This document shows, in pieces, positions 8,607-63,756 of a DNA stretch of 64,000 bases; the first letter of the stretch is position 1, and each line of letters begins with the position of its first letter. The notes below the pieces were generated by a model. The model had not been told where the DNA came from and did not search any database. It saw nothing but the letters and a program-made list of their open reading frames with translations. The stretch is from Tetradesmus obliquus. Lineage: Eukaryota; Chlorophyta; Chlorophyceae; Sphaeropleales; Scenedesmaceae. The position numbers and the translations under genes are program-made. Location of the stretch: the NCBI GenBank assembly GCA_030272155.1, contig CP126193.1:1798001-1862000 (forward strand). Direction: 5' to 3'.

Positions 8607-11600
8607 ATGGCCCAGATCAGCACCGGCACGTTTGGTGAGTTTGCTGTCAGCAGCTGCAGCGAGTTCGAAGGCGTGCGTGGTTGGTGGCACTTCCTATCCA
8701 AGCGTTTGCCTGCCACGCTCCAGCGCCCTTCGCATTGATCGCTATCAGCAGCCATATATCCATATTGCACCAGCGCAAACGCACGCGTGCTTTAGCCAGC
8801 GCGTCTGTGCTCCAGGGCACCTTTGAACAGCAGCACGAAAGCATCTTGGTGCCTCAGCGCCTTGTGCACCAGATACCGCTTAACGGGCCTCCCTGTATCA
8901 TTGCTCACCCACATCAGCAGCCAGCCAGCAGCAGCAGCTACACAGGCGTCCTCCCCAAATCAACAACTAACCCTCTCCCGCCTTGCTGTGCTGCCTTGCT
9001 GTCCTGCACCACTCCCCTACCCCCCACCCCTTCCCTCCTCCCTTCCTATCCCCAGGCTTCCCTCGCATCGGCCCCAAGCGCGAGATCAAGGCTGCCCTGG
9101 AAGCCTATTGGTCCGGCAAGCTCTCCCAGCCCGAACTCCTCTCCATCTCCGCTGAAGTCCAAGCTGCAGACTGGCAGCTGCAAGCATCTGCAGGCATCAC
9201 CCGCATCGGCATTGATGGCACGCTGTATGACCAGGTGCTGGACACCACGCTGGCCCTGGGGCTGGCCCCTGTGAGGTTTGCCAACTTCAGCGGCCTGGAG
9301 CTGTATTTTGCCATGGCACGAGGAGCCAGCGGCGTGGGCGCGCTCGACATGTCCAAGTTCTTTGACACCAACTACCACTATCTGGTGAGTGCGTGGTGTA
9401 CCTTCTTGGTTGGTGATGAAGTGTGCTAGAATGGCTGTGCTGGCTGGATGTGGACATGTGTGGCACTGGAGGGGATGCAGGGAGTGGCATGTGTGCACTG
9501 CAGCGCCAGCTGTGTTGTCAGCTGGATGTGCTGCAACCTTGTCTGTAGCAGTGCGCGCGGTGTGAGCAGCCGCCACCTACCCCTGTTTTCATGGCCATGT
9601 AGCTCACAAACACCTGCTCTGCCCTGCCACCCCTTGCCCACCTCTCCTCATCCTCCAACCACTCCCTTCTCTCCTCTCCCCCAGGTGCCAGAGCTCGAGG
9701 GCGACTTCTCCTGCAAGTCCCCCAACTTCACACCCCTGCTGGAGAAGGTCACTCGCGCCCAAGCCCTCCTGGGCAAGTCCCGCGCCATCCCCATGCTCAT
9801 CGGCCCTGTCACCTTCGTGCTGCTCTCCAAGCGTGACCTGGCGCTCCCCGAGGCAGTGTCCCGCCTGCTGCCCGCCTACGGCCAGCTGCTGCGGCAGCTG
9901 CAGCAGCTGGGCTGCCCCGAGGTGCAGCTGCACGAGCCGAGCCTGGCTACTGATGCTGGCGCTGCTGCACGTGAGGTGTATGAGTCAACCTACGCCCAGC
10001 TGGCGGCTGTGGGCTGCCCGATTGACCTGGTTACCTACTATGACGACCTGGGCGAGGCCTACCCCTGGGCTGTCAACCTGCCTGTTGCTGCTGTCAGCCT
10101 GGACTTCTGCGGGGTGCCTGGCAGTGCTGCAGGCAACGCAACGCTGGACCTGATCCGCGCACACGGCTTTCCTGCAAGCAAGCGCCTGGGCGCCGGCCTC
10201 ATCGACGGCCGCTCTGTGTGGGCCGATGACCTGGCGGCGGCGGCTGCCGTGCTGGGCGAGCTGTCCACAGCTCACGGCATCACCAGCATCTCCATGCAGC
10301 CCAGCACAACGCTGCAGCACCTGCCCTACTCCACTGCTGGCGAGGCGGGGCACCTGCCTGCAGAGCTGCTGCCGAAGCTGGCCTTTGCAGTGCAGAAGCT
10401 GCAGGCGCTTGCTGACCTGGCAACACCCGGCAAGGTGCAGCCGGCTGGCCCAGAGGCTGCGCGTGTGTGGGGGCAGCCTCCTGATGGCGCTGCTGCTGCC
10501 AAGGCCGGTAGCTTGCCTGGCGTGGATGCCGCACTGCTGGCCAGGAGCGAGAGCTATGAAGTGAGGAGGCCTAAGCAGCCAGAGTTCCATGCCTTCCCTA
10601 CAAGCACCATTGGCTCCTTCCCCCAGACTGCAGAGGTGAGTGGAATGTGCTGTGTTGTGTGTGGTGTGCAGCGCTTTGGTGGGGTGGGGAAGGGTGGGGA
10701 GGGGAGCAGGGTGGGCATGTTAGCAGTGTGTTTGTGACTGGTGGGTGATTGTGTTGTGGTCTGATGTTTCGCATCAGTGCACCACCTGTGTGCCTGGGCC
10801 GCGCTCTGAGCAGGACATTCCACGTCCAGCCCGCACCAGCCATTCGGTTGGCGCCGCTTGCGTTGCTTGGCATGCCTCAGCGCTGCCTCGTCCCTCCACT
10901 GCCACTGCGAAAGGTTAGGTCATGTGGTATGACACCCTGCCAGCAGGGAGCTACCAGGTTCGACTCCTGGAGCCTTTCAACAGTGTGTGCGCCCGCGCCC
11001 GGTGCTGCAGCTGCAGCGCCGGCCGGCCAGTGTCGGTGTGGGATAAGAAGCAACCAGCGGGTGTGTGGGTGCTCAGCAGGCGTGAACAACCCGGGTACCT
11101 GGTGTGTGTGCTATGTGTGACCAAGGACATCTGTTGTCTTGGTGTTGCGCTGTGCAGTATGTATGTTGTGATGTGCAATCTTGAGTGCGTCCTGATGTGC
11201 GGTGTTATCTTTTTTTTCTATGTATGCTGCAGCACATAGTGCAAACAATGCAGGGTTCCTTCTATAAAATCACCCTGAGCAACATGCTCAGTAACATAAA
11301 CTTTGCCACAGCACTTGGCCTTGAGAAGATAACAGTGTTGCAGAGCCAACTGGAGAGGTAGATAACACGTCAAGCCACAGCAACATGCTGCTACATAACC
11401 TGAGATGTTACCACAATTTTACACTTTCCCGTAGCGCTACAGAAAATGTCAACAAGCTAGCAGGGCAGCTAGAACATGATACACATGCCAATGTCTTGAC
11501 ATATTGTAGCTGGGTTGTCATGGCTCCCAACGCAATATACATTATCAGCAGCTGCCAGCTGTGGATTGGGAGCAGAACAAGTACAGCGGGCAGGACACAA

Positions 11601-14600
11601 CTTGGGTGCTGTTGCAGTGGCAGCCGCGAAACGAAAATGCTAATACTGCTGCTGTGACCAGAAAGAAATAACACAAGAAAAACACTGCTTTTGTTGATAG
11701 AAATAAGTTGAGGGTGTTGCTGCCTTTGCACTTGAAACTTGGCAATCCCTCAGCAGGACCACAGTTGGGGAAGTCACCCAGACCACGTTGTTTGCCGCTC
11801 ACACACACAGCACATGGTTGTGCTGTGTGCTTGAAAATTGGAAACCACCACAAACAACTTGTTTAAGCCAGATGGTTGAAAGCAGCCGCAAAATGCCGTC
11901 GTCTTGTGCAAACACATGGTAGCTGGGGTAGAGCTAGAATGAGTCCCAAGTGACACACTACTCAGGTGAACTGTGTGGCCTGGTCACCATTTAATGTTAT
12001 GGTTCAGCCGGAAATGTACACAGTGTAAGACCAGACCGCGGACAGCAGAACACCAGCACAGTGTGAAATGACGGACGGTAAATGCACAACTGCACCTTCA
12101 GACAAACTAAACTAGGAGCCCTCCTGCCCGAAGACCCCTGGCCTAAGTGGGTGCACGCAGGCACAGCAGTCCAGTAGCACGGGGTTGTGCGGGTGTGGCG
12201 TCGGCAGCAGCGAGTAAAAGTGCATGGTTATGAACTTTGTAAATCAAATGGAGGTTGAGCAACTGACAGAAGTGGCCAGCGCTCGTGGCTGGGGGTTGCA
12301 GCATGCAGTGCGCTAACACATGAGGATGCAACCGTCTGGCTGAACTCTTAAAGCTGAACTGGAATACCATAATGCAACGACAATCGCAGCAACCACCAAT
12401 CCCAACCACATGCAATATGCTACCTCTGGCAAAACCTCTGCACCTTGCAGCTACAGTGTGTGGGCACGCTGTCCTTTGAGTACCTGTCGCCTCATGTGCA
12501 GGGGGGGGGGGGGGGGGGGGTGGGAGTCCCAGGGTAGCAGCACGCACTGTGCAGAGCTGCAAGACATTCTGTAGCACAGTCGAAAGCAGCGCCTGCATGG
12601 CTAAGCTGGCGGCACCACCACTTTTCAACAAAAGATGGTGCCAGGACTAACTGGCCAACTAGGCCTTCCTCACAATCCGCGTCACTGCATCATCAGCATG
12701 CAACAACGCCAGTGCAGCAACTTCAATGAAAGCAAAGGCACACACGCAGCTGTGTGCGCAGCAAGTCTGTCGGGCAGATGTTCCTCGAAACTGAGGCTCG
12801 GCAACCACAGATGAAACAACAGGACTGGCAGCAGCTGGCTGACAGTGCAGTCGGTGCATCACTTGCAAATTGTTTGGGCAGTTGCCTTCTTGCAGGAAAC
12901 TTGTGGCTGTGTTGATTTCATGCCTGCTACCGTTAAGTGCTGTGTCACAGTGCGTCGTCAGCATGTCATCAGTTGTTGGCCAGTACTGCACCTGCACTGT
13001 CATCAACCTAATTGCCCAGTACTGCACCTGCAAGGCGGATGACGTGCATGCTTAAGAGCTGAAGATCTTCCGCCGCTGCTACATGTGTAGCTGTAGTGTA
13101 ATGCACACTCTGTGACTTGTGTGTGCTCAGCGCTGCATATGTTTCCCAGGCATGTCAGGGGGGGGGGGCACTCCAGAAAGTCCAGGACAGCATCACCAAA
13201 AACTGAAACAGGGCCCAGCCCCCCCCCCCCCCCCGTCCTCACCCCAAAAGGTTGCGTGTATAGGCATGTTACTTGATATTTTGTTATCAAATAGCTGCTT
13301 CAACACGTTTTTACGGCCTGAGCTGTGTTCATGCGTGTTTCCGGGACCATTCTGCCGATCTGATCTGGCCCAAAAAACTTGCTGTTGCTTGGGTTCGACG
13401 TGTGGTCAGTCCATTGCCAGCTGCTCCACATGTATGTGATTGTTTACTGGTACTATTTACGTGTGGAAATGATAGAACATGATATAAGCTGTCAAATGAG
13501 CTTGCTCTGCCTTCAATCAAGCTCCTGACCAAAAAGTTATAAAACTTGAGACAAAAAGTGACCGGCCCCCCAGACACCCCCCCACCCCTGCTCCCCCCAA
13601 AGGCCTCAGATTCCCCTCAAAAAATGACAGTAGTTATTGGTTATAAAATATAACATATCCTGAAGTTTTTTGGAGGAAAAGAATGATGGTGCTGTCAGTG
13701 GATGGAGTCCCCCCCCCCCCTTGGGCATGTCGACTTTTGCGTCATGGCATGCCACAGTGCAATCCAGCAACATCAAGCATGATGTAAAAAGAATGCCGAA
13801 AGAGTCCAAAGCATGCAACTCCAGCTGACTTCCCGCTGCAGTATTCTCAGCTGCAACGCACCACATGCATGCAGCATGGCATCAGCCCACACATCTGCGT
13901 CAGCCATATGCAAGGACCTGCTCACAGGCACGCGCCTGTGTGTGTTTAAGGAGCAAAACAGCAGATCATGCACTGCCAGTGGTTACTGCGTAACCCCCCT
14001 GCTGCTCTTCTCACAATGAGCGTCTGTCATGCTGCGATATGCTCAACTGCCTATGTGCAAACTCCCAACCAAACAGCATGCCTCTGTGCCCTCATCACGT
14101 CATGTGCCAGCCCTCTCCTGCACACCCTCCACACCACACCGCAACAGGTGCACCGCCTGCGCACGCTGCTGCTCTAGTGCGGGCGCGGCAGGGACCAGTA
14201 GGTCACAACGGCCCTGCTGTACATCACACAGTTGGCCCAACCCATCACTGCTACCCGCATGCACAAAAAACCACAAACCAGCAACAATCCCCTGCCCACC
14301 TCATCATCTGCGTTTGTCATCATTTGCCCTGCCGCTTGCTGCCTTTGCTCCTGCACACCGCACCGCAACAGGTGCGCCGGCTGCGCACGCTGCTGCGCTC
14401 CGGCAAGCTGTCCCGCCCTGAGTACGAGCGCCTTGTGGACCAGCAGGTGGCCTTTGCGGTTGGGGTGCAGGAGGCTGCGGGGCTGGACGTGCTGGTGCAT
14501 GGCGAGCCGGAGCGCACCGACATGGTGGAGTACTTCGGCGTGCAGCTGGGCGGGCTGGCCTTCACGCTGCAGGTGCGGCACAGTGCACAGATGTGTAGAT

Positions 14601-17600
14601 GATGTGTAGAGTCAGAAATTGTGCATGAACTGGCCCCAGCGGCGCTTGTGACATGGTGGAGTGGTTAGGCGTGCAGCTGGACGGGCTCGCCTGCACGCTG
14701 CAGGTGCGGGGCTGGTGTGTTTTACATAAGTGTCACCCGAAGGCGCGTCAGTAATGGCTGTACATGGTATCATAACATGATGTTATGACAGGGTTGCAGC
14801 CCAGACAGATGAATGGTCGGGGTTGGCTGGTTTCAACTGCAGCGGGTGCAGATATGGCAGTTGCTCTGGCCTGTGCCACACGGTGGCCAGTGCCCGGCCT
14901 CTAGGCTGGCGGCAGAGCCCTCGGGTCTGCACAGCCCTGCAAACCAGCACCTGGCCTTAGCTAACTTCCACAGGCGTGCATGCACTGCTGTCCTACTACC
15001 AGCCAAACCAGCCTCTGCTGCCTTGTATCACACAGCTCACCCATTGATCAACCCTGCTGGCTCATCTTGATTGTCCTGCGTTCACCCCAGCCATTCTTCA
15101 CAGGACTCGACTGCCGCTCCTGCTACGTGCGGCTCCCACCATCAGGTTCTGTCATTTGAGCTCGATGTACTATTCTGGCTTGCTTTTTCCTTGCTTGCAG
15201 GGCTGGGTGCAGAGCTGTGGCTTGCCCTACGTGTGCCCCTGCCATCAGATTCTATCATTTGAAGTTGATGTACTGCTTTCTTGTTTGTTGCTTGCTTCCA
15301 GGGCTGGGTGCAGAGCTACGGCTCCCGCTACGTGCGGCCCCCCATCATCACCGGCGACGTGTCCTTCACGCAGCCCATGACCGTGCGCGAGTTCACCGTC
15401 GCACAGCAGCTCACTGCCAAGCCAGTCAAGGGCATGCTGACTGGCCCAGTGACCATCCTGAACTGGTCCTTCCCCCGCAAGGACATCAGCAGGGCAGCGC
15501 AGGCGGCACAGCTGGGGCTGGCGCTGAGGCGCGAGGTGGATGCGCTGCAGGGAGCAGGCTGCAAGATCATCCAGGTGGGCCTGTGTGGCTTGTTTGTGAG
15601 TGCTGTATTTGTTTACAAAAGTGCTGTGTTTGCTGTTGTCAGCGTTATGTGCATTGACAGAAAGAGGGTAGTTACATGTGGTTCTCGGCACCAATTTTCT
15701 CGTATAACCTGGAACAAGATGAATGCATAGTCTGTCAACAGGAAGTAGAAGCGTGAACAGTGTGCATTGCAAGAAAAAAGGGAAAGTCCTCTTGGGTTTG
15801 TCTTGGGGCTGGCGCTGAGGCGCGAGGTGGATGCGCTGCAGGGAGCAGGCTGCAAGATCATCCAGGTGCGGCTTGTTGATGTGTGTAGTACACCTAGTGG
15901 GTGCTTTTTGTGTGTGTTGCTGTGTGTATTGCAGGACAGACAACGTGGAGGTCCTCTCGTACAGCTGCGCAAGCATGCTGCGGTGGCATGGCGCTTGCAA
16001 CTGCTGCCCGTCCACTGCAGCCATATGCTGCCTGTGTCGCAGCTGCGCTTCATGCAGCGTAACACGATGCATGCGGCTGCTGCACTGCGGCCACCCCGCT
16101 GTGCCTCCTAACAGGTGGACGAGCCCAGAAGCTGCCACTGTACTTCGTAGTGCGTTGAATCAGCAAGTGCTGCGCTGCATGTTGCATAAGATAATACATG
16201 CCACTGCTGCGCTGCTTGCTGTTGTCACCTTGACTGGCTGCATCACAGGTGGACGAGCCTGCGCTGCGTGAGGGCCTGCCGCTGAAGCAGCAGCGCTGGG
16301 CAGGCTACCTGGGCTGGGCCGTGGACGCCTTCAGGTAAGACCGCGCCCGGCAGCAGCAGCAGCAGTGCCGGCAGCAGCAGCATAACAGTGGCGAGTCTGT
16401 AGAGCTAGGCTTTGGAAGAAGAGCCTGCCTGGTCTGCCTTTAAATTGGTGCCTGCAGCCTGGCTGTGCTGCTAGCAGACAGTGCCTGCTGTCCTGTGCGT
16501 GCGTGTGGGTGCTGGGTAGCGTGTTGGCTTTGTCATATTGGGATGTAGCTGTACATGTTACTGTGGCATTAGCAGATGACTGCACACGCAAGGTTCAACA
16601 AATCAGGGTGTTATTTCGGTGAGTGTCATGCCACATCCGAAGGTATCAACAGGTGAGCTGCAGTTGGCCAGGTGCGGCCGGCGCTTATTAGTGTGTTTCT
16701 TTGTGTGTTTCATGTCTTCGTTTGTTTTGTTGCTTACTGTCAGCAAGTTTCAGGTACGCTGGCCAGTTCGTCAGTAGCAGCCTGCTTGTTTGTGCACCAG
16801 CTGTGTGCCTGGGCCGCGCTCTGAGCAGGACATTCCACGTCCAGCCCGCACCAGCCATTCGGTTGGCGCCGCTTGCGTTGCTTGGCATGCCTCAGCGCTG
16901 CCTCGTCCCTCCACTGCCACTGCGAAAGGTTAGGTCATGTGGTATGACACCCTGCCAGCAGGGAGCTACCAGGTTCGACTCCTGGAGCCTTTCAACAGTG
17001 TGTGCGCCTGTGCTTGGTGCTGCAGCTGACAACAAATAGGCCACGCGCTTCTGCGCGGCCTACTTGTTGTTTGCTGCAGCGCCGGCCGGCCAGTGTCGGT
17101 GTGGGATAAGAAGCAACCAGCGGGTGTGTGGGTGCTCAGCAGGCGTGAACAACCCGGGTACCTGGTGTGTGTGCAGCAGGCAGAGCTGTGCTTGTCATCT
17201 GTCTGCCCTGCCTGGGGTGTACTTAGCATTTGCTCAACTGTTTGATGCGGTCAGTCCTGTGGTTCCTGTTTGGTTTTTTTTGCCTGTTCTCACAAGCTGA
17301 TGGTTTGCTGGAAGGTGAGATGCAGTCACAAAGGGGCTTGGCGCGTTTTCCAGTTTTGTAACGTGGTGATTTGCCTGCTGTAAGGAGCTGCCATGCCACT
17401 GAGCTCTGTTGAGTTGCTGTGTTCTTTGTCCGAGCCTGTGCAAGCCTCCTTTGCTTTGCCTGCGTGGCATGCTGGTGCCATGTGAAAGCGATGTCCACAC
17501 TCCAGCGTTGCGTGCTCGTGGCGGCCTTGTGTTTGGAACGCGCACTCATGATGCCAGCATAAGCATTGCCAGCACATGTAACATGCGCAGCATGCCGGTC

Positions 17601-19568
17601 ATGCTGTCTTCCTATCGCACAGCTATATGCAGCAGCTGGCCAAGCACTGCGCCGCACATTTGCATTGCCATGCTGTGCCCAGGTTACACATAACTGTGAC
17701 TGCTGCCTGGAAGCTTCTGACATTCTTTCTTCACTGCTGGGCTGAGTGCTGCTCCTGCCAGGTACATGGCCTGACCTGGCCGGCAAAACAATGCAGCGTT
17801 TGTGTGTCGCTTGAGCTTGAGTCTCATTAGTCTCTTCGTGTGCTGTTCTTTGGCTTCTGTACATGCAAGTTCCTGCCGGATTGTGCACCAGCAGCGCACC
17901 GATGTCAACCATGCCTGCTGGTACTGCGCACAGCAGCAGCTGCAGCTCACTCCCTATGCTGTGTGTGCTGTGCCTTGCACTTGCTGCTGCTCCTGCCTCT
18001 GCCCCGGCTGCTGCCTGCCGCCAGGCTGAGCAACGCGGTTGCGGCCCCGGGGCGTGCAGGTTGTCACCCATCCTGTGCTACAGCAACAGCTGCAGCTCAC
18101 TCCCTGTTTTATGCGTGCTGTGCTGCACTTGCTGCCACTTTCTCGTCACCCTCCCCTGCTGCCGCCAGGCTGAGCACCGCGGTTGCGGCCCCGGGCGTGC
18201 AGGTGGTGACTCACCTGTGCTACAGTGACTTCCAGGACATCATGCCTGCAGTGGATGCCATGGACGGTGAGTGGTTGCTGCTGTAGGGCCCTGCTGTAGA
18301 AGTGAGAAGTGATGTCTCGCTTCTGCAACGGTGTTTGAGGTGAACTGGTTCAGCAGGTGAAGGTGGTGCCATTGCGCTGCCTGCGAGCTTTGTGTGTCAC
18401 AGCAAGCCCCCAGCACCCAGTGCAGCACATAACTGCCTGCAAAATGTTCTTGTCCTACCCTGATCTGCTGCTGCGCTGCAACTCGCCCCAACTGCATTCT
18501 ACCCTGCGCTGCGCCGCACCCCGCCGTTCGCCCCTGCAGCCGACGTGCTGACCATTGAGAACAGCCGCAGCGGTGACGCCATGGTGTCGGCGCTGGCTGC
18601 CAGCGGCTACGCCAAGGACCTGGGGCCCGGCGTGTACGACGTGCACAGCCCACAGGTGAGTCCACAAGGACATATATGTAAACAGTAATTGCATGATTAC
18701 GCACCATCAAGCAATGCTGAAAAAAAGGAGTGTTTGAGGCTGCCGGCAGGGCTGGATAGCGGTGTGTGGAGCGCTGTTGCTGATGGGAGCCGGCGTGTAC
18801 GACGTGCACAGCCCACAGGTGAGAGTGTGAGGCTAAACTGAGGCGGCATTGTTGAGCTGCGCTGTGTAGAATGCTGTTGCACATGGGCCCTGGCGTGTAC
18901 GACGTGCACAGCCCACAGGTGAGTGTGTGAGGCTGTATGAGGTTGTATGGAAGTTGTGTGAGGCAGGGTTGAACAGCGCTGTGTAGAGTGCTGTCACAGA
19001 AGGGCCTTGGCGTGTACAACAGGCACAGCCTATGAGTAGGTGGCGGCTCATTGCAGCCACCCATCAACTCCAGCAAGCACAGCCTGGCTGCAGCAGCTGC
19101 CTCAATGCAGCTGCACAGCAACCACCGCGCTGCTCTGTTTCCCCTGCTGCCGCTGCTGCTGCTGCCATTACTATGCCCACCAGGTGCCTTACGTGGACTC
19201 CTTGCTGTGCCCTGCCCTTGCTGCTGCTGCTGCCCACTCACCCACCCCCTCCCCAGGTGCCTGACGTGGACTGGCTGGTGGAGAAGATCCAGGGCTTCGT
19301 GGACAGCGGCGTGCTCAAGGGCCGCCCGCAGCACATCTGGGTCAACCCGGACTGCGGGCTCAAGACGCGCCGCTGGGAGGAGGTGATCCCCTCGCTACGC
19401 AACATGGTGGCGGCTGCAGCCATCATGCGCGGCCGCCTGGCCGGCAACGCTGCTGCGGGTGCGGCTGCAGCTCCTGCGGCTGCTGCGGCGCCTGCAAATG
19501 CAACTGGTGTGGAGACGAAGATTGTTCCGAAGGCGGCTGGATGCGCTGCGGGCGGTTGCTGCCACTGA
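8607..19568 (+). CDS. METE: Cobalamin-independent methionine synthase, 9 exons
   Basis: Transfers a methyl group from 5-methyltetrahydrofolate (polyglutamate) to homocysteine without vitamin B12, making methionine. No transit peptide, so probably cytosolic. Exons: 8607-8634, 9056-9384, 9685-10635, 14372-14572, 15302-15574, 16249-16334, 18169-18266, 18540-18655, 19257-19568; 797 aa against about 765 in plants, the excess being an Ala-rich C-terminal tail. Start chosen at [15 protein letters not shown], the classic MetE N-terminus. The N-terminal domain covers roughly residues 1-430; the C-terminal catalytic domain follows, with [49 protein letters not shown]. Zinc ligands are visible as His638 and Cys640 (THLCYSD) and Cys727 (NPDCGLKTR). 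Coding is intact, yet introns 3 and 6 are very large and nearly every junction is flanked by copied exon edges. In other algae METE is repressed by B12; no B12 element is recognised here. Confidence 0.98.
10777..11111 (+). repeat. tRNA-like SINE, copy 1 (METE intron 3)
   Basis: About 335 bp, repeated at 16792-17174 in the same orientation; roughly 204 consecutive bases are identical between copies. The central part has a perfect pol III B box, GGTTCGACTCC (10957-10967), and an A-box-like segment (10916-10927), and folds as a tRNA (separate entry). Both borders begin and end near GTGC. Architecture (tRNA-like head, unrelated flanks, no ORF) fits a tRNA-derived SINE or other pol III-transcribed repeat. 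The family is not one I can name. Confidence 0.7.
10910..10977 (+). other. tRNA-like fold inside SINE copy 1
   Basis: Seven-pair acceptor stem AAAGGTT/AGCCTTT, four-pair D stem GTCA/TGAC with a GG-bearing loop, and five-pair T stem CCAGG/CCTGG with loop TTCGACT. The anticodon arm is wrong: CCCTG/CAGGG closes on only four bases (CCAG), so it should not decode. I therefore call it a tRNA relic within a repeat, not a tRNA gene. The same fold recurs at 16925-16992. Confidence 0.7.
15115..15318 (+). repeat. Tandem copies of METE exon 5 acceptor region
   Basis: Two units of about 100-104 bp precede exon 5. Each carries a near copy of the start of exon 5 (GGCTGGGTGCAGAG... / CTACGTGCGGC...) followed by TTTGA-rich intron and the next acceptor. 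The true exon begins at 15302; the copy at 15202 keeps a usable TTGCAG acceptor but would shift frame, because the unit is 100 nt. Confidence 0.8.
15804..15868 (+). repeat. Exact 65-nt copy of METE exon 5 3' edge
   Basis: Bases 15513-15577 (the last 62 coding bases of exon 5 plus GTG of the donor) recur without a mismatch at 15804-15868, 291 bp downstream inside intron 5. The copy has the donor but no nearby acceptor in front of it. Confidence 0.9.
16792..17174 (+). repeat. tRNA-like SINE, copy 2 (METE intron 6)
   Basis: Second copy of the element at 10777-11111, about 6 kb away and in the same orientation. The tRNA-like core is at 16925-16992. It differs mainly by a 45-bp fold-back insertion at 17028-17072 and a few substitutions around 17008-17020. 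High identity in non-coding DNA implies recent duplication or recent insertion of both copies. Confidence 0.7.
17028..17072 (+). mobile_element. 45-bp fold-back insertion in SINE copy 2
   Basis: Absent from copy 1, so its borders are defined: it splits GCTGCAGCTGCAGC and is flanked on both sides by GCT, as expected of a 3-bp target duplication. The insert is a hairpin: ACAACAA/TTGTTGT, then TAGGCC/GGCCTA, closed by GCG/CGC around a short loop. It could be a miniature inverted-repeat element. The flanking GCT may also be chance in a GCT-rich context. Confidence 0.5.
17931..18079 (+). repeat. Copied METE exon 7 acceptor region
   Basis: About 149 bp covering the intron tail (CAGCTGCAGCTCACTCCCT...), acceptor and the first ~50 bases of exon 7 are duplicated in tandem: the copy at 18029 onward mirrors exon 7 at 18169 onward (AGGCTGAGCA..GCGGTTGCGG). 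Small differences include an extra G in the copy, which would break its frame. Confidence 0.8.
18791..19038 (+). repeat. Three copies of METE exon 8 3' edge in intron 8
   Basis: The exon 8 tail and donor (18628-18660, GGCGTGTACGACGTGCACAG core) recur at 18791-18823 and 18891-18923, both with an intact donor GTGAG, and in a decayed form at 19009-19038. Spacing is about 100-160 bp and the sequence between is also repetitive, so this is a tandem array anchored on a splice donor. Confidence 0.85.
19178..19207 (+). repeat. Copy of METE exon 9 5' edge
   Basis: ACCAGGTGCCTTACGTGGAC resembles the exon 9 start CCCAGGTGCCTGACGTGGAC at 19253 onward, including the acceptor AG. It lies 73 bp upstream of the real one. 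Confidence 0.7.
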
Positions 19569-21184: not shown

Positions 21185-25678
<4,494 letters not shown>

Positions 25679-26580: not shown

Positions 26581-30820
<4,240 letters not shown>

Positions 30821-35317: not shown

Positions 35318-38036
35318 TTAGGCGGTGGCTGCCTCGAAGCGCTTGGCCACTGCTGCCCAGTCCACCAGGTTGTCCACAAAGTTGGTCATGAAGTCGGGCC
35401 TGAGCAGCAGCAGCAGCAGCAGTAGACAAATCAGTGACAGCCTTCAACTTGCTTCGTTACGGCGATCGTCTCCCCTGGCTATCACCTCGCACTACCAACC
35501 CCCATGCGCAACTGCATAGAGCACTGCATGCATGCACAGGAGGTGCCGAGTGTGATTCCAAAAACGCCATCTCACTGCAAGTACTACTAGGCTTGCAGCA
35601 TAATGTAAGATCAGGTGTCTTGGCACAACTTGAATGCATGTTAGCAGCAACACGCAGGGACAGACGTGTAGTGCGCACCTCCTGTTCTGGAAGTCCAGGT
35701 AGTAGGCGTGCTCCCACACATCCATGGTCAGGATGGGGCTCTTGCCCTCAACCACGGGGGTCACTGCATTGGGCGTCTTCACAATGCTCAGCTTGCCGGC
35801 CTTGTCGGCCACCAGCCACGCCCAGCCGGAGCCAAACTGTGTGGCGCCTGCGGCAGCAGCAGCAGCAGCAGCGGCGGATCAGCAAAGCAAGTGTGGAGCA
35901 AGAGCTGGGGTGTGACAAGGCCCTTGACAAGCAGTGCGGGCCGAGCGCATTGCTGGCAGCCCTGCTCGTGCCACCCTGCCACTCATTGCAGTGCTGTTTG
36001 AGTTTGTGTTATGGGGTGCCGCCGTTGTGCGGCAACACTGCTTCCCGACCGCTGCCTTGCACTGCGCCTTGGAAGTGATACTGCTGCTTGCCACCCTGCC
36101 ATGCACTGCACAGCTGCTTTTCAGCACCGCTGCGTGCTGCCGGCTCACCTGCTGCCTTGAACTGCGTCATGAAATTGTCCAGGCTGCCGCCCACCCTGCC
36201 ATGTGCTGCAAGGCTGCTTTTACAGTAACATGCGTGCAGCAACTCCCTGTCGTGCACTGCTGCGTGCAGCAGCCTCATTTGGCTGCCTTGAACTTGGCTA
36301 GGCTGCCTACAATGCACTGCACAACCGATACACTGCTTTGATACAGTACGGCTGCGCGCGGCCACTCCCACCTGCTGCCTTGAACTGTGTCTCGAACTCA
36401 TCCAGGCGGTCGCCCACCCTGCCATGCACTGCAAGGCTGCATGTATGAAACTGGTGCATGCAGTTGCGCTCACCTGCTGCCTTGAACTGTGTCTTGAACT
36501 CGTCGAGGCTGCCGAAGCTGGCGTTGATGGCGTCAGCAAGCTTGCCGCTGGGTGCGCCGCCGCCGTTGGGGCTCATGCTCTCCCAGAAGAAGGTGTGGTT
36601 CCACACCTGCAGGTGCACACATGCATTGCATTGGTGAGACACAGTGGCAAGGGCGGAGGCACTAGGGTGGTCGGCAGTTTGGGCTCATGCTCTCCCAGAA
36701 GAAGGCGGTGGTTCCACACCTGCAGCCAGGCCAATCACATGAGATACAGTCAAATCAGCGGTTGGTTGAACCCCTCCTGGGGGTAGAAGAGGTTATGGAT
36801 TGGGTGCACACATGCTTTGCTGGGATGCTTGCTTGCCCAGGGTGGTATGAGCCGGAGACGACCGCAAAGGGCTTGGCAGAAGCTGGTGTGCTGCTCGTAT
36901 GCATGGCCGTTCTGTGGCGACTATTGTTCTGCTGCGCTAGGCATCTGGCGCCCGTGCATCGAAGCTGCTGTTAAATCAAGTTTGCCAATGTATTGATGGT
37001 GTGTACCTGAGCTGCGTTGTTGAAGACTGGGGTGGGGCTGCCGTTGTTCCAGCTGGCCATCACAATCTCCTCCAGGCTCTTGCCCTCCAGCTCAGTGCCG
37101 GCAATCTGCTTGTTCATGTTGTCAACATATGCGCGGTGGTGCTTGCCTGCACAGACGAGGGGAACAGGCAGGCAGCAGCATAGAGTGAGTAAGTGCAAGC
37201 CAGTGGAGGCTTGCTCTTCTATTCTAAGGCTGGTGCTGCTGCAGGACACCCTCTCAGCAGCAGCACAGGCAGCCGTTGCCGACGGGCTCGTATGTAAGCG
37301 CAAACGGCTCTAATTGCTTACAAGATGGTGAGGAGAGGCATGTACGTCGTGCGTATGCCCCAGGCTGCTGGGCGTGGCCAGATCACTAGCGCCACACACT
37401 TGGAACCAACGCCGGCGAATCCAGCCTCACCCGACAACATAGCCACAGTATAAGCAGTTTCACCTCAAAAGCGTACCAATGTGCTAAGCCAGCGATTGAA
37501 TGCACGACTGGATCGACGTGCGAAGCTTCTACAACGCACAGAGAGCATCACTCAAGCGACCACAGGTACGTTCTCAAACAATGAACGTCTCAAGCCTAAA
37601 TTTGAACACAACTGAACATCAATGCAAGGACAGATCACCGGCAAAGCGTCGCACACAGCTGTAAGGCCTTCTGCAACTGAGCCAGCCACTTGTTCATGCT
37701 GTAGGGAGTGGACATCAAGAACAACGCACGACACCACTGCCATCATCCAACAAACAAAGCACCACAGGCAGCCTTTGCACGGCCAAGGCATCAAGCAGCC
37801 AGCAACACATCAACATCGGCGCTGTGCAGCTCAAGATGCTCAACAGGCGCCAGGCACTCACCCCAGTGGTACTCCAGGGTGCTCTTGCTCATGCCCTTGC
37901 CCTCCAGTGCATCCAGGGCGAAGGGTGGGTCCTTCAGGGTGATGGCAGCCCTGGGCACCACAGCGCAGCGCCTGCTGAAGCTGGGGCGGGCAGCAGTGCC
38001 CGCTGCAATCTTCTTCTGTGCCAAAGTGAATGCCAT
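35318..38036 (-). CDS. FSD: Iron superoxide dismutase, chloroplast, 5 exons
   Basis: Converts superoxide to hydrogen peroxide and oxygen, in the plastid stroma. Exons in transcript order: 37862-38036, 37007-37146, 36474-36606, 35679-35847, 35318-35399; 232 aa. Residues 1 to about 30 ([20 protein letters not shown]..) form a transit peptide. Metal ligands are all present: His57 (EYHWGKHH), His109 ([11 protein letters not shown]), Asp192 and His196 ([11 protein letters not shown]). The GSGWAWLV motif and overall spacing are Fe-type rather than Mn-type. Introns 2 and 3 carry several copies of the exon 3 edges. Divergent from the small ORF at 38445, with about 400 bp between. Confidence 0.98.
35960..36440 (-). 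repeat. Tandem copies of FeSOD exon 3 3' edge in intron 3
   Basis: The exon 3 donor end (36468-36514) is copied at 36365-36413 and 36143-36190, with a weaker copy at 36276-36310. Between them a CCACCCTGCCATG..CTGCA segment recurs near 36089, 36191 and 36413. Copies keep CTCAC|CTGCTGCCTTGAACTG, i.e. the donor plus the codons for QFKAAG. Confidence 0.85.
36678..36725 (-). repeat. Copy of FeSOD exon 3 5' edge in intron 2
   Basis: Matches 36566-36612 (acceptor side of exon 3, codons for [11 protein letters not shown]) almost perfectly, with an extra CG and the CACCTGCAG acceptor kept. It lies about 113 bp upstream in transcript sense. Confidence 0.85.
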
Positions 38037-38696: not shown

Positions 38697-40948
38697 AGTG
38701 CGCAGTGGGAGGCTTGGGGTGGGTGTATGTGCAGCCTGCACAAGCATCACTGCATCCTGCAGCCCGCTTGTCTACCGAATCTGTTACAGATGTACGTTGT
38801 GTTGTTTGCATGCCCAATAGGTGAACTTACATCAACTATTGGGTTGCCTGTCTTCATTGGCATGTGTTGGGGGTGCTGACGGGCGTATGCCAGTTGCAGC
38901 TCTGCTGTTGTTGGCTATGAGGGAGCTGCACATCAAGTTGTACAACATCCATGTTTGCTTGTACATATACACAGCAGATCACTTTTGGGCGAATGAGGTC
39001 TGTACAATTTGCAAGGGGTGTGGCTCAGAGTTTGCAGTGCCACAGCAACAGCGCGAGCGGCTTGCCAAGTGCAGAGTTGCTTTATCATTTCCTTGAGGGT
39101 CAAGTACCCCATGATCGTCAGTTCAGTGCTTTCTGGTTGGCTGTCAGCAGCTGTATCTGGATGCCAGATGGCATGCTTGGCTGTCAGCAGCAGTATCAGC
39201 ACTGGTAGCATCCATTCATCAATTCTGTGGTGGCCAATTAGTTTCTGCATTGTCCATGCAGCCTCGACTTCAACAGTCATGCCTGTTCAAGGTTTGCACC
39301 CAAGCTGCCTCCTTGTTAGCAGCACAGAAGTACAGCAGTGTTGTCAGTAGCAGTTTCACGCGGTGCTCCTTTGCAAGCTGTAAGTATGCTTGTGTTGTCC
39401 TGGCATCAGCAGGTCCTGCCTGCTGATGCAGCATGAGCCCTTTGTAGTTGCGCACTGCGGCAGCTGTAACATCCAGGGGTTGTGGTGTCCTGACTTCGGC
39501 AGATGAGATTTTGACAGGCGGAGTATGATGTCATGTTGACTGCTTTACAAGGTTGCAGATACATGGTCATCTCTTGATTGAAGCACAAAAATAGTTGTGG
39601 GAGTGAGTGATGCCTCTCAGCTGGATTCCCCCAGCAGGGGCTAGCTGGCCTACTGCTGTGCAGATGAGTCGCTTCCGCAGAGCATGTGACACATTAATGC
39701 GTGTCGTGCAGCAAGGGGATGTTGTTGGGTAATTTGATGATGAAGGGGTTGTTGTGACAGAGTGCGCACATGGGTGCTGCCTATCTGCATGTGGGTTGAA
39801 CAGCATTGCACACATTTGTGTTGAGATGCAGAGATACGCTGCTGACAGATGATCGCCAAGCAGCACATGCGAGCGTGTCAGACCGCATGGTTGTTTCATT
39901 GCTGTTGTTGCGGCTGGAGGCATCACCGTTTGTTTGTTACCAAGCAGCTGTTGCTGCACATGCTTCGTCACTGGTTGTAATAGTATTGCTGTCAGATTTT
40001 CGGCAGAGCAGTCAGGCTATGGACAAGAACAGCCAGAACATGTTGAACTCTGCAATGCACATGTAACCGCCGGCTCTCTGCTTGCCCCCCTTAGGTTGGG
40101 GTTACCCATCAAGCCATGGCATCAACGCCATCGGCCCCAATGGCCGTCGGCTCACTGCTTGCCCCCATGGTCCATGGAACATCATCATAATCATTTTTTT
40201 TGTGGTTACCAGGGGGGACGGAATCCTACTGGCTCGCTACCACAGCACAATTGGGCAAGCCCAACTGCCGGGAGCGGGAGGCAATGCCTCACCAGCAGAA
40301 CACGTCACAACACCCTATACCGGAGGTGCCCAGCGCCCGGACCAAAAATCATAATCATTTTACCATCAGCCATAGCATCAACAGTCCATGTAACGTCCTT
40401 GGCCTGATATAACAGGCTAATTTGATACAGCCCACCTTCCATTCACATGCAAGAGCAGCATGCCGTCAGGGCGTCCACCCAATGGGCCCAGAGCAGCAGC
40501 AGCGCAAACCGTCTAGACGCAGATGCAGATCTGCATGTGACATTCTGAGCAGTGGCACTGCCATGCAGGAACAGCGCACTGCCATGTCCTATGCATAGGA
40601 ACATGCATGACGTATCACAGCTGCAGATGTGTGCACGCTGAAATGAAGTCAGACAGCCACAGCCGTGCATACAGGGTGCACAGCCCTCAAACCAAGCAGT
40701 ACTGCCGCAACACGCATTACGCGTGCACTTGGCGCTGTACACCTTGGTGGCTCTGCTGCATCATTAGGACGAAGCTCCTGTCAAATCTTGAAGTCTTGCT
40801 TGCGCCTTGCACTGCAACAGCAACCTGGGACCAACCTGAGCTGTATCTTCTGAGGCTCACTGAGCTGGCACCTGGTGTCAGGTCAGGTTGCCGGTGCCAA
40901 GCTGGCCAGAGGCGTGGAGTATGATACTCAACCACAAGCTTGGCTGCA
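38697..40948. other. 2.2-kb region with degraded coding-like tract and diverged repeats
   Basis: On the minus strand, 38933-39971 holds several overlapping ORFs in different frames (e.g. MRNYKGLMLHQQAGPADAR) that read more like protein than chance, perhaps a decayed transposon or pseudogene; the family is not recognised. 40069-40388 holds pairs of diverged internal repeats (GCTCTCTGCTTGCCCCC / GCTCACTGCTTGCCCCC; TCATAATCATTTT twice; CCATGGCATCAAC / CCATAGCATCAAC). Confidence 0.35.
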
Positions 40949-51735: not shown

Positions 51736-54700
51736 GCGCCAGCAGCAGCGGCAGCAGCAGCAGAACAGCCATTTGGCGTGCATTGCAACATGCAAAATGC
51801 ATGGTGTGCGTGACAGCACCAGCAGCGCGCGGCGATACTCAGTGTGGCAAAGACTGTGTGACACCAACGTCCTGCGTGTATGTTGCTTGGCAAGCCAGCG
51901 CAGCAGCCTCAAGCCAGCATGTCTTGAATGCAGGGGGATGGTGTTGCAAGTCTGCTGTGACACGGGTGCACCCGGTACTGACCGGCCATTGCTCGTCTGT
52001 TGTGGCGTGCTGTGCTGTGGCTCATGCTGTGCAGAACAATGTGGCGGCAGACACGCTGCTGTACTTCTGCAAGCGGCTGTGGGGCCTGCCCTACCTGGCG
52101 CCTACCTTTGCGCTGCTGCTGCACAGGTACCCCTTGTTCAACCAGCAAAGCAGCAGCAGCAACAGCAGCACGCACACACAGCAGCCATGGCATGCACCAG
52201 GACTGGCTGCAATCAGCGGTAGCTTGCTGGTGCACTTGCAGACTGCATGAGCAGCAAATGCATTTTGGAGTGCAACAGCCGCCAATGAATCACACTGATT
52301 GATGCTGGCGCATTCGGCAATGCCAGCAGCAATCACACACAAAGCAAGTAGGGGCGTTTGAGAGGTACAAGCATTGACACTTCATGTGGCTGCTCTGTCA
52401 ACTGTATTGATCTGTTGTGAAGGTGGCTGCTGCTGCGGCGGGAGGCAGGCGGCATTGAGCAGCGGCAGAAGCATGTCAACGTACTCATGTATGGTGAGCA
52501 GCAGCAAGGCTCAGCAAACGCCAGGATGCTGCAGGTGCTGCGCAGCACAGCTGCAGTGGCAGTACTTGTCATGCAGCTGTCCAGCAGCAGCGGCCTTCCT
52601 GCTGCGGGATGTGGTACCTGCTACATTTCAGCTGGGCTAGCGCTGTGTTTTGCAGCTGCTTGCCCTCTGCACGTAATGTATGCATGGACAGTCGCGTCAT
52701 CACCTCATCAGTGTCATCAATGCCCCGCAGCGCCTCCTTGAAACACCATGCCAAGCACCACTTGCCCTGATCTGTCTGCCAATACAAGAACCGTCAGTTC
52801 TCTCATCTGACAGGCCAGCTGTGCAAATTGTGCTCCTCGTCTCTCCCTTCCACGTGCAGGCAGCCGCCAGCTGTTCCTGGGTGATGTGCAGAGCGGGATC
52901 AAGAAGTTTGCCGCACTCTTCGGCTTCTTGAGCCAAGGGGTGGTGCTGTCGCCCAACAGGCAGCACCTGGACCAGCTGCCGGCGCAGGCGAGAGAGACGC
53001 TGCTGGCGGTGGTGGCGGCATACACGCCCTACTACACGCCACCCGCGGTGAGCATGATGTCACGCAGCAACTGCGTGCTACTCGACGCCAGTTGAAGACA
53101 AGTCATCATGGGGATTGATATTGCCATGCAACATTGTGTGTGAACGTGGATGTGTGTTTGATTGGTTGCCATGTTATGTGCGATGAGGGAGCCAGTGCAT
53201 CGGGGGTGTTTTTGTCACTTGGCAGGCATTTTGTTGGCAGGGAGACGCTGCTGGCAGTGGTGGCGGCATACACGCCCTACTACACGCCGCCCGCGGTGAG
53301 CGCCGCACAGATTGCGACAATGAGGGCTCAGTGGGGGAGGTACAGAGTGACGGCTTGCCTGTAGACATAGGGTTAGTCCGAGGCTATGAAGTAGACGAAG
53401 AGTCTGAGATTGGTATCGGCTCATTGATGCCGTCTCTTTTCCCCTCCTGACACACTGCTTTACCTGCCCTGCTGCCTGCTCTTATCTTCACCCGTGCACG
53501 TGCGCCCGTCAGGCTGTGAAGCAGGTGATGGAGGAGTTCCCCTCACCTCTGCACACACTGGCAGAGGGAGGCCACATGCCAGGTGCGCAGTATGCTACTT
53601 GTCTTGAAAGGGCTTGGAACCTGCGTAGAATTTGCAAACGTAATGCAAAAGTGCTCCTTTTTTGCCACTCCTTTGCGTGATTGCTATGGCTTGATTGGTG
53701 ATTTGGTGATGATGCCAGGTGCAAAGCAGCAGCTGCAACGTAGAGCCAGCAGCCATGTGTGCCAGCCGCCTAGGCAGGGCCAGCAGGTGACTGGGGGCGC
53801 CAAAGGGCTCACGTTGCATATGAAGCTGCATGATGACCCACCCAGCACTTGTCACCTGCACCTCTACAGTGCAATACCTGCTGCTGTCTCCAGCACTCAT
53901 CATGCTGCTGCTTGTCCTCCCTCCGCCGCCGCCGCTGCTGCTGCTGCTGCTGCTGCAGGCGAGGGCGCGGACTTCCTGCTGGGTGAGGTCACTGACACCA
54001 TCAGCCGCGTGCGCACCGAGCAGGGCCTGCTCACCTACCTGCACTGCCTCAAAGCGCTAGGAGGGGCGCACCACCTCAAGTCGCTCAAGGCCATCACACG
54101 GCTGCGGCTGCAGAGCGAGCTGTACAGCCTCACCTCGCCAGGTGGGTGGCAGGGTGCAGGGGCAGCTGATGCTGTTCGTTGTTGGCTGCGCTGATTGCGT
54201 GCAGCACATCGCGTCCAGCCAGAGACAGAGCCAGTTAGAGAGCTGTCCAGAGTGGCTGGGAGTAATGGTTTGCTGGTAGTGTGACATGTATGCAACAAGC
54301 GTTGTCTGATCTCGCTGCCACAGCCGGCTCATGACATGCGTGCGTATATGGATGCTGCATGCTCAGCATGGTTGGGGTGGTACCTTGCCTCAGCTGACAT
54401 GCGCAGCAGCTGCACTGCGCCTCCCAAGCGTGCGGTGCGCTATCACTCCCGGAGCACATGCATCACGCAATGCGTCACGCCTGCCTGCAGTGGGCTCGGG
54501 GCCGATGGCGTTAACGCTATGGCTTGATGGCTGATTTGCTGATGCTGCATGCCTGCAGGCGGCCCCTACTATGCGCCGCGCTCGGTGCGCTCCGCTGCGC
54601 TGGAGGTGCTGGACGCGCTGTTCCCCATGGGGCGGCGCAGCCGGCGGCTGGTGCGGTTGGTGTTTCGAATCCTGCACCCCGCGGAGATCCTGGGCGTAGT

Positions 54701-54914
54701 GTTTTTCGTGCTGCTGCTGCCGGTGCGCGTGTGGAGCTGGGCGAGCCGCAAGGCGCTGGGTGGGGTGGCGTGGGCTGTGATGGGTGTGCTGCGGCTGTTT
54801 GGGCTGCTGCGGCTGCTGGGGTGGCATGGCGCCGCTGCTGGGGGTGGGAAGGCTCCGCAGGTTGGGCAGGCAGCGAGGGGCAGGGCGCCTAGGGGCCATG
54901 GTGCGCTGCAGTAG
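50976..54914 (+). CDS. Conserved-looking unknown protein, 419 aa, 9 exons
   Basis: Exons: 50976-51038, 51133-51223, 51538-51683, 52035-52126, 52423-52493, 52860-53047, 53513-53582, 53959-54141, 54559-54914; 1260 nt, exact codons. The N-terminus is acidic and soluble (MDENTRPEDVLSQEILRKLK). The middle is helical with compact conserved-looking blocks (RLWGLPYLAPTFALLLHRWLLL, KKFAALFGFLSQGVVLSP, YTPYYTPPAAVKQVMEEFP, GLLTYLHCLKALGG). Near the C-terminus ILGVVFFVLLLPVRVWSW is a likely membrane helix, followed by more hydrophobic residues and a basic tail. No catalytic motif or signal peptide. Function unknown; I cannot name the family. The open frame continues past exon 3 for 570 bp, so intron 3 retention would still encode protein. 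Intron 6 carries a copy of the exon 6 end. Confidence 0.75.
53242..53301 (+). repeat. Copy of exon 6 3' edge in the 419-aa gene
   Basis: 60 bases match 52994-53053 with few changes, 248 bp downstream, including the donor CCCGCG|GTGAGC. Here the copy is also preceded by an acceptor-like TTGGCAG, so 53241-53295 could splice as a 55-nt cassette exon, which would shift the frame. Confidence 0.85.
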
Positions 54915-62146: not shown

Positions 62147-63457
62147 CAGCAGCAGCAGCAGCAGCAGCACATCAGGCAGATCAGCGGCCATGCAGTGCTC
62201 CGGGATGCCCGGCATGTACTGACGTGTCAGTCAAGCAGGTCAGCCACATCGGAGCTGCATTGAGTCTGCTGGTGGTGCAATGCAAGGATATGCATTGCTC
62301 CAGCATTGTTCTGTATCCCTGCTACGCTTGCCCTTCTGAATGAAGCAGGGGGTTTACTTGCCACTGCAATATATGAGGGCCGCTTGCGGTTTGACCAACC
62401 TCGTACTGTACATGTGCTGCGTGCTGTGTTCCATTGCAGTGGCGCTGTAGTATCAATGCGCCGCTTCAGCTTACTCTGTTGTTTCGGCTAACAGATTGGC
62501 GTTCCGTGCGCGTCTTATGCCTGCTATTAACTGGCATGGCTGTGATCATGTTTTGACATCTCATCCCCAGCTCCGACAACAGACTGCCTGGGGCACGAGA
62601 TGAGTGCATTTCATTACAGCATGCATTGCACCTGTATGCCGCTTCGTAGCCAACGGTGGCTGGAAGTGTATCAGCAGCGCCTGCGCCGTGCTGAACCTGA
62701 GGTGTTCTGGTGATGGCGAAACAAGGCACGCTACGGCACACAAGGGTGCTATCGGTGCTCAGTGTCTGGCTTATTATGTTAGCGCAAACTCAATCCCATG
62801 CGGGAACATGCAGTGGTAATGGATATTAAGTGGCAGCAGCGACATGCGAGCCGCTTACTGGGGCGTGGTTTTGATGGGGTGAGAGGCGTGAGTGTTATCT
62901 GTGTGGGTGCAATTTGCGTCCGTAAATGGCTGCGCAGGGGTTGCGGTTGAGCAACTAAAAAGCGCAGCCATTGGCTGAGTGCGCTGCCAAGTTGAGCACG
63001 GACCTCCTGTGGTAATTGGGTTTCCTGCATAGTTGAAACAACATGATGAGCTTTGGTGGATGGGTTTGGTGTTGTGAAATGTGGTGGAGGCAGCGCACGT
63101 GCAGCATTCTGTGCAAAGAACCAGCTGCCATGCATGATAGGCTTGGCGGCCATGTTAGATGGATTGACGAAGCCCAGGCGTGTGCGTGTGGGGGCGCGTG
63201 TTGCCCGGCCACATATGAAATGCATGCTTGCGGTGCTGCTGCTGCTTCTGGTATGAATTTCTGCCTGGCTCCTCAGGGTGATCTGCATTACCTCGGAAGC
63301 ATGCATGCCGCTGTCCGGAGATTGATGGTCAGCAGTGCAGCATGGCACAGTGCATGTACCAGTATATATCCGTTCTGCTAAACAGGAGTGCCCAGTGGTG
63401 CTGCAGGTTGCAGTGCATCATTCACGTGACTAGAACCGCTGGTTGAACGTAAAACGC

Positions 63458-63519
63458 GTGAGTGGCTGTCTCTGTGTCCACAAAATCCGTGAGTGGCTGT
63501 CTCTGTGTCCACAAAATCC
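63458..63519. repeat. 31-bp tandem duplication
   Basis: GTGAGTGGCTGTCTCTGTGT... occurs twice, perfectly, with a 31-bp period. Confidence 0.9.
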
Positions 63520-63687
63520 GTCAGCTTTAGGGGGATGTTGAAGGCAAGGAAACAGCAAGCTGTGCACCTCAGCAGGCTCCAGGGCGGTGCATTCATTTGG
63601 CGCAGTGCTGGGTTTAGGCCGCTCTAGAGAGAGATCTGAGTGATCTGTCAGGGACACAGAGTGTCACCTGTTATAGATCCCTTTTGT

Positions 63688-63756
63688 TAAGGCTGTCACT
63701 GTCATGACTAAGGCTGTCACTGTCATGATTAAGGCTGTCACTGTCACTGTCATGAC
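63688..63756. repeat. 21-bp tandem repeat, three units
   Basis: TAAGGCTGTCACTGTCATGAC repeats three times; the last unit has an extra CTGTCA. Confidence 0.9.

Follow-up and report, generated by a model that had tools for sequence, protein, structure and literature searches.

Exon-edge copies in the introns of a green alga as probable relics of local duplications across splice junctions

Gao and Lynch, in 2009, are said by papers citing them to stand behind a model in which introns are gained by local duplication. In the potato RdRp gene, a tandem duplication across an intron-exon boundary has been reported (Ma et al. 2016, PMC4974935), and tandem repeats are enriched near the intron-exon junctions of Chlamydomonas reinhardtii and Volvox carteri (G3 2014, PMC3887541). 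A scan of 20 eukaryotes described exon-intron matches within the same gene as common. In the window analysed here, i.e., the whole 64,000-nucleotide stretch of DNA, exon edges are repeated inside the adjoining introns. These copies, termed echoes, contain exon bases plus the adjoining splice-site bases. A first-pass annotation had noted them in METE and in three other genes and had read them as tandem duplications spanning splice junctions by which introns grow.

The window contains no N, and its GC content ranges from 51 to 62% per 2 kb. The source is a green alga, judging by the genes of the window. METE encodes a cobalamin-independent methionine synthase (Pfam Meth_synt_1 and Meth_synt_2; best solved relative, 1u1h), and a second gene was read as NTRC, a thioredoxin reductase with a C-terminal thioredoxin domain (best structure match 7p9d, which we take to be a Chlamydomonas entry). 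Further genes encode Fe-SOD, IFT122, a leucine-rich-repeat (LRR) protein, a CDK/MAPK-like kinase, an FN3-domain product, and a coiled-coil protein with a single sub-threshold Pfam match. For the product of about 300 aa encoded at 52035-54860 (the 53-kb gene), no Pfam match at E 0.001 was found. The gene models come from a small gene finder that had learned from clear exons, with later editing by hand; they derive from the sequence only, and their terminal exons are uncertain. They span 9 genes, 61 introns, and 122 internal edges. The mean modelled intron (429 bp over 61 introns) and the GC content resemble the values published for Tetradesmus obliquus (mean intron 462 bp, GC 57%; PMC5966456). 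Probing a viral contig collection with the METE exon 5 peptide recovered one locus and no intron-bearing alga: a 48-kb contig (L001) carries an uninterrupted 758-aa ORF (200-2476) over the METE match at 60% identity and, since this ORF is uninterrupted, represents no intron-bearing algal relative. The IFT122 peptide retrieved zero algal relatives from the viral and genome contig collections. None of the other 61 modelled introns comes near METE intron 3 (10636-14371; 3.7 kb) in length; it has C and G runs near 13160-13240 and 13560-13720. Outside the modelled genes, exact or near-exact short tandem duplications occupy 63457-63521 (31 nt × 2.1) and 63688-63746 (21 nt × 2.8).

Exon edges were compared with introns as ungapped 36-mers of 6 intron and 30 exon bases, with 27/36 as the clear cut. 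At a score of at least 27/36, matches were present in the own-side intron at 11 of 122 edges, and in none of the controls, comprising the wrong-side intron (0/104), inverted matches (0/122), introns of other genes (0/1223), and exon middles placed in flanking introns (0/74). A looser cut of 22/36 gave 13/122 on the own side and 1/104, 2/122, 19/1223, and 0/74 in the same controls. Together with the start of Fe-SOD exon 3, recognized by a gapped test, the clear echoes amount to 12 of 122 edges, or about one junction in ten: METE exons 4 (start and end), 5 (start and end), 7 (start), and 8 (end); NTRC exons 3 and 4 (starts); Fe-SOD exon 3 (start and end); exon 3 of the 53-kb gene (end); and LRR exon 8 (start). 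The starts of METE exons 6 and 9 add two weak cases. Direct local repeats (offset below 1 kb, at least 50 bits) number 16 in the window, inverted ones zero, and 12 locally shuffled windows yielded no direct repeat. All 16 fall in the echo loci of METE, NTRC, Fe-SOD, and the 53-kb gene, a few of them being echo-to-echo pairs. The echoes are not due to chance. The exon-edge scan and the comparison with shuffled sequence, both proposed with the first-pass annotation and carried out here at window scale, confirm its observation, including the upstream placing of acceptor copies and the downstream placing of donor copies, and the three further genes in which it had seen the pattern correspond to NTRC, Fe-SOD, and the 53-kb gene, to which the LRR gene adds a weaker case.

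The METE copies, all on the forward strand, are located at, or a few bases from, the places first named for them. The start of exon 4 (14372-14572) is repeated with its acceptor at 14126-14175 (90% to 14350-14399; 31/36; echo junction 14148; intron flank p = 0.002), and its end with the donor at 14650-14709 (90% to 14519-14578; 33/36; echo junction 14703), where no intron-flank similarity was found relative to the donors of other introns (p = 0.51). At the start of exon 5 (15302-15574), a tandem array with a unit of 101 bp and 2.3 copies (15116-15350) includes an echo at 15201-15247 (15123-15247 vs 15227-15347; 30/36; echo junction 15201; intron flank p = 0.001) and an older, decayed copy of the exon part at 15104-15142. 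The end of exon 5 with its donor recurs at 15804-15876 (97% to 15513-15584; echo junction 15865; intron flank p = 0.08). All 61 exon bases compared (61/61) are the same there, and the intron similarity is lost just past the 5' splice site. The start of exon 7 (18169-18266) and the end of intron 6 form a unit at 17930-18083 (81% to 18080-18225; echo junction 18025; intron flank p = 0.001), so that two units lie head to tail; by eye, four bases (ACAG) are common to the unit start and the exon continuation. For the end of exon 8 (18540-18655), the three copies originally claimed are two near-perfect ones with the donor, copy 1 at 18788-18823 (95% to 18621-18660; echo junction 18818) and copy 2 at 18888-18924 (93% to 18618-18661; 35/36; echo junction 18918), and a decayed third at 19003-19040 (within 18859-19030 vs 18759-18913). 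Exons 6 and 9, which had been listed alongside exons 4, 5, 7, and 8, have weak echoes only. That of the exon 6 start (exon 16249-16334) lies at 16109-16126 (echo junction 16115), next to a repeat pair (16042-16088 vs 16169-16215); its exon part is not significant (p = 0.30) and its intron flank is (p = 0.007). That of the exon 9 start (exon 19257-19568) lies at 19178-19199 (echo junction 19184; 24/36, p = 0.01; intron flank p = 0.011, in a CTG-rich stretch). No echo at all was found at five edges of exons 1-3, the ends of exons 6 and 7, or the start of exon 8.

Outside METE, the start of NTRC exon 3 (28432-28626) is echoed on the forward strand at 28324-28375 (28324-28365 vs 28422-28463, 90%; 32/36; echo junction 28334; intron flank p = 0.21), where the AG is gone, and the start of NTRC exon 4 (29062-29250) at 28903-28990 (86% to 29031-29117; 35/36; echo junction 28932; intron flank p = 0.002), where the unit start and the exon continuation share two bases (CA) at the join, by eye. 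Separately, a 12-nt minisatellite starts 8 nt downstream of the NTRC exon 2 donor (28039-28099, 5.1 copies, GCTTGCAGGACA). In the 53-kb gene, the end of exon 3 (52860-53047) with its donor recurs on the forward strand at 53239-53301 (95% to 52991-53053; 35/36; echo junction 53295); 52 of 54 exon bases agree, the intron similarity stops just past the 5' splice site, and no intron-flank similarity was found (p = 0.59). Fe-SOD lies on the reverse strand. The start of its exon 3 (36474-36606) is echoed at 36674-36725 (92% to 36562-36612; gapped score 69; echo junction 36719; intron flank p = 0.48), the ungapped score being low (23/36) because of an indel. The end of the same exon has a near copy with the donor at 36366-36405 (36369-36407 vs 36471-36509, 92%; 32/36; echo junction 36372; intron flank p = 0.09) and a farther one at 36143-36180 (repeats 36043-36514; echo junction 36149; intron flank p = 0.001), with further decayed copies between and beyond. 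The weaker LRR echo, at the start of exon 8 (21185-21368), is on the reverse strand at 21474-21507 (24/28 from the first exon base; 27/36; echo junction 21501). Zero echoes were accepted in IFT122 (0/34 edges), the kinase (0/16), the coiled-coil gene (4 edges), and the FN3 gene (8 edges).

Several candidates were dropped: the start of FN3 exon 4 (score 37), which is rich in CAG and has no anchor at the junction; the end of NTRC exon 2 (score 24), also unanchored; the starts of kinase exon 8 (14 bases) and IFT122 exon 6 (11 bases); repeats between LRR exons, which look like protein repeats; and two non-coding pairs lacking a junction echo (53675-53715 vs 54508-54548 and 40067-40089 vs 40144-40166).

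The echoes cluster, with 6 of 16 edges affected in METE and 6 of 106 in the remainder (Fisher p = 0.001, LRR echo counted). Within this one window, such clustering lends no support to the genome-wide pattern suggested by the first-pass annotation. Echo-bearing introns are longer, with a median of 614 bp (n = 10) vs 293 bp (n = 51; p = 1.5e-5), in agreement with the proposed intron growth; cause and effect are not separated by this comparison because long introns also give echoes more room. In this test and in the random-placement test given below, the LRR echo intron and edge were treated as echo-free. Offsets to the nearest copy range from 98 to 291 bp (73 bp for the weak METE exon 9 start), and the echoes hold about 28-61 exon bases and one splice site. 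Having one splice site each, and with exon middles unmatched in the control scan, they do not represent whole-exon tandem duplications or mutually exclusive exons, and their offsets exclude a minisatellite near intron ends with units of 1-50 bp. Codon bias, taken as a stand-in for expression, did not separate the echo genes (ENC 33.6 for METE and 28.4 for Fe-SOD), since echo-free genes have similar values (35.4 for IFT122 and 34.9 for the kinase).

The echoes are best explained as what remains of local duplications across splice junctions, at offsets of about 100-290 bp, which lengthened introns while leaving the protein unchanged; we assign this reading a probability of roughly 0.6. A duplication spanning an acceptor would place the intron tail and exon head twice in succession, and use of the downstream acceptor would keep the old mRNA; one spanning a donor would duplicate the exon tail and intron head, and the upstream donor would do the same. 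Both types would presumably be near-neutral, leaving a longer intron in which the unused copy decays, and repeated rounds could produce the arrays at the METE exon 5 start, the METE exon 8 end, and the Fe-SOD exon 3 end. Slippage or end joining would fit the short identities seen at two joins (2 and 4 bases). The reading is supported by the direct orientation of the copies (16 vs 0 inverted at 50 bits), the head-to-tail units at the starts of METE exons 7 and 5, the stop codons that use of the echo would bring into the exon at 14 of 16 sites tested, and the greater length of echo introns.

Further support comes from the intron side of the copies. Intron flanks were compared, anchored at the junction, with the acceptors or donors of other introns at 13 loci, the LRR echo standing outside the set. 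The flank was copied along with the exon edge at 7 of 13 loci (the starts of METE exons 4, 5, 6, 7, and 9, the start of NTRC exon 4, and the end of Fe-SOD exon 3). The absence of detectable intron-side similarity at the other 6 (the ends of METE exons 4, 5, and 8 and of exon 3 in the 53-kb gene, and the starts of NTRC exon 3 and Fe-SOD exon 3) counts against the duplication reading. So does the result that, for the METE exon 4 end and the exon 3 end of the 53-kb gene, no intron partner was found even with long gaps allowed. At the METE exon 8 end, intron-flank similarity was found at neither of the two near-perfect copies (p = 0.77 and 0.64), but the echo unit re-matches the real intron once a gap of about 68 columns, which opens right after GTGA, has been passed, with offsets of 163 and 100, a difference of 63. 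Here the alignment shows a visible cause for the flank mismatch: the 5' splice site is followed by a block of about 65 nt, past which the unit resumes as expected of a duplication. This block suggests that insertions and deletions may rebuild the intron part, and the exon-derived part would then outlast it.

Divergence was evaluated by simulating neutral decay for 10 events, with exon differences counted by eye. Because the exon copy is under selection, a divergence of about d is expected between exon and echo and about 2d between the intron parts. The starts of METE exons 5 and 7 fit neutral tandem decay. It was rejected for the end of METE exon 5 (0/61 differences), copy 1 at the end of METE exon 8 (0/29), and the end of exon 3 in the 53-kb gene (2/54), and the rejection holds even with d raised to its 95% upper bound, whether indels are light or heavy. 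These three cases, which combine 96-100% exon agreement with an unalignable intron flank, also speak against the duplication reading in its simple form. The end and start of METE exon 4, the starts of NTRC exons 3 and 4, and the start of Fe-SOD exon 3 are partly low at the point estimate (the METE exon 4 and NTRC exon 4 starts under light indels) and compatible at the upper bound. The original proposal of junction-spanning tandem duplication, with the frame-keeping copy in use, is supported for the arrays and the majority of acceptor echoes, and simple duplication followed by neutral decay fails for the three rejected cases. There is direct evidence for the proposed mechanism at about half of the loci; the rest need added insertions, deletions, or conversion.

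Conversion was considered as an account in its own right: the duplications would be old, and their exon-derived part would be refreshed by gene conversion from the exon. With selection fixing the exon as the template, the exon part and the first bases of the 5' splice site would stay alike while the intron flank diverges. The end of METE exon 5 (61/61) and that of exon 3 in the 53-kb gene (52/54), with their unalignable flanks, agree with such a process, which would also explain why the ungapped identity of donor echoes stops 3-6 bases past the junction. Copies 1 and 2 at the METE exon 8 end, both intronic, point the same way (core 33/35, aligned flank 59/75), but this contrast is borderline (p = 0.05). 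The process is not general, as the exon parts of the METE exon 4 start and end echoes have decayed by about 11%. Overall, we regard it as an unlikely main explanation.

The donor echoes might alternatively form a separate class, in which repair with template switching placed short stretches of exon tail and 5' splice site 70-220 nt downstream, bypassing any tandem stage. The ends of METE exons 4 and 5 and of exon 3 in the 53-kb gene have a copy-spacer-copy form. Intron-side similarity is present at 1 of 5 donor loci and 6 of 8 acceptor loci, a contrast that rests on small numbers. On the other hand, the METE exon 8 end is a tandem unit plus a block, and the METE exon 5 end is weakly similar on the intron side when long gaps are cheap (p = 0.015, 0.020, 0.005, and 0.090 at four gap costs relative to shuffles; p = 0.08 relative to other real introns). 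Random breakpoints, moreover, would not repeatedly end copies 3-6 bases behind a junction, and this origin appears improbable.

The copy-spacer-copy form of some donor echoes would also be produced by an introner-like mobile element that duplicates its target on insertion. When seven spacers were compared pairwise in both orientations, one pair fell below p = 0.03 (p = 0.02), which is near the chance level, and none of five spacers exceeded shuffled scores in a window-wide search; within the window, a repeated mobile family among the spacers is not supported. Introner target-site duplications measure 3-9 bp (PMC9860276), compared with 40-70 here, and an origin of this kind is very improbable. 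An assembly artefact is less credible still, given that copies differ from their exons by 0 to about 25%, that many offsets occur, and that the order is always the one that real duplications predict.

Two echoes would lengthen an exon in frame without a stop codon if used, that of the METE exon 7 start (18025-18168, +144 nt) and the near copy of the Fe-SOD exon 3 end (36372-36473, +102 nt); from the sequence, they are possible alternative isoforms. These two open extensions, together with the GT or AG kept at 15 of 16 echo sites (the more decayed copies being outside this count), many of which score like real sites, would suit selection that keeps echoes as decoy or alternative splice sites. 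Such retention, however, is little above the expectation at about 10% divergence, the splice site is gone from the older copies at the ends of METE exon 8 and Fe-SOD exon 3, and zero known RNA families matched at the gathering score in 13-20 kb. Selection of this kind is considered quite improbable. In METE and Fe-SOD, our own simple gene finder mistook echoes for exons, so that protein models from such genomes may contain false repeats.

The position of the repeats bears on whether junctions are targeted. With annotated exons masked, 9 of 11 local repeats (at least 33 bits) sit in echo-bearing introns. Under random placement of the observed unit lengths, 34-60% of intron-only or one-edge placements would cross an edge. 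Duplicate pairs that lie wholly in introns diverge at twice the rate and are more easily missed. All 11 units cross an edge (p = 1.2e-4), but as this value ignores the twofold faster decay, only the five loci with a detectable intronic part, all crossing an edge, are to be weighed (p = 0.012). This result is suggestive of junction targeting by the duplications, and the near absence of purely intronic duplications is a further point against undirected local duplication. Splice junctions, rather than introns in general, might then be preferred for local duplication or copying in this lineage, with constrained exon edges serving as templates that re-copy into the adjoining intron; we regard this as unlikely. 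If true, introns would grow by a junction-directed process, stronger in METE, Fe-SOD, and NTRC than in other genes.

All echo copies sit inside existing introns, and no new intron was seen; the data support the lengthening of introns but not their gain. Were about one junction in ten echoed genome-wide, related strains would provide a dated series of junction duplications, in which intron lengthening, splice choice between near-identical neighbouring sites, and conversion into new introns or exons could be studied directly.

The tandem-duplication model of intron gain (AGGT) shares with the present loci a local intragenic duplication rendered harmless through splicing; it differs in that exon sequence there becomes a new intron, whereas the echoes lie in pre-existing ones. 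The potato RdRp case (PMC4974935) is alike in its unit, which runs from the 3' part of an intron into the 5' part of its downstream exon and inherits the splice signals. A new intron is reported to have arisen there, as shown by relatives and RNA, whereas here existing introns lengthen and many junctions in one window are involved. The repeats of Chlamydomonas and Volvox (PMC3887541) also belong to green algae and are concentrated towards intron ends, but their units are 1-50 bp and are not reported to include exon edges, whereas the present copies do include them and have offsets of about 100-290 bp. The scan of 20 eukaryotes required whole-exon coverage and would probably miss edge-only copies with 28-61 coding bases. 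No title or abstract on splice-junction echoes at such a density was found in a literature search that most subscription papers lay outside. The type of event is already known from these systems, and the density of its traces is the interesting part of the present window.
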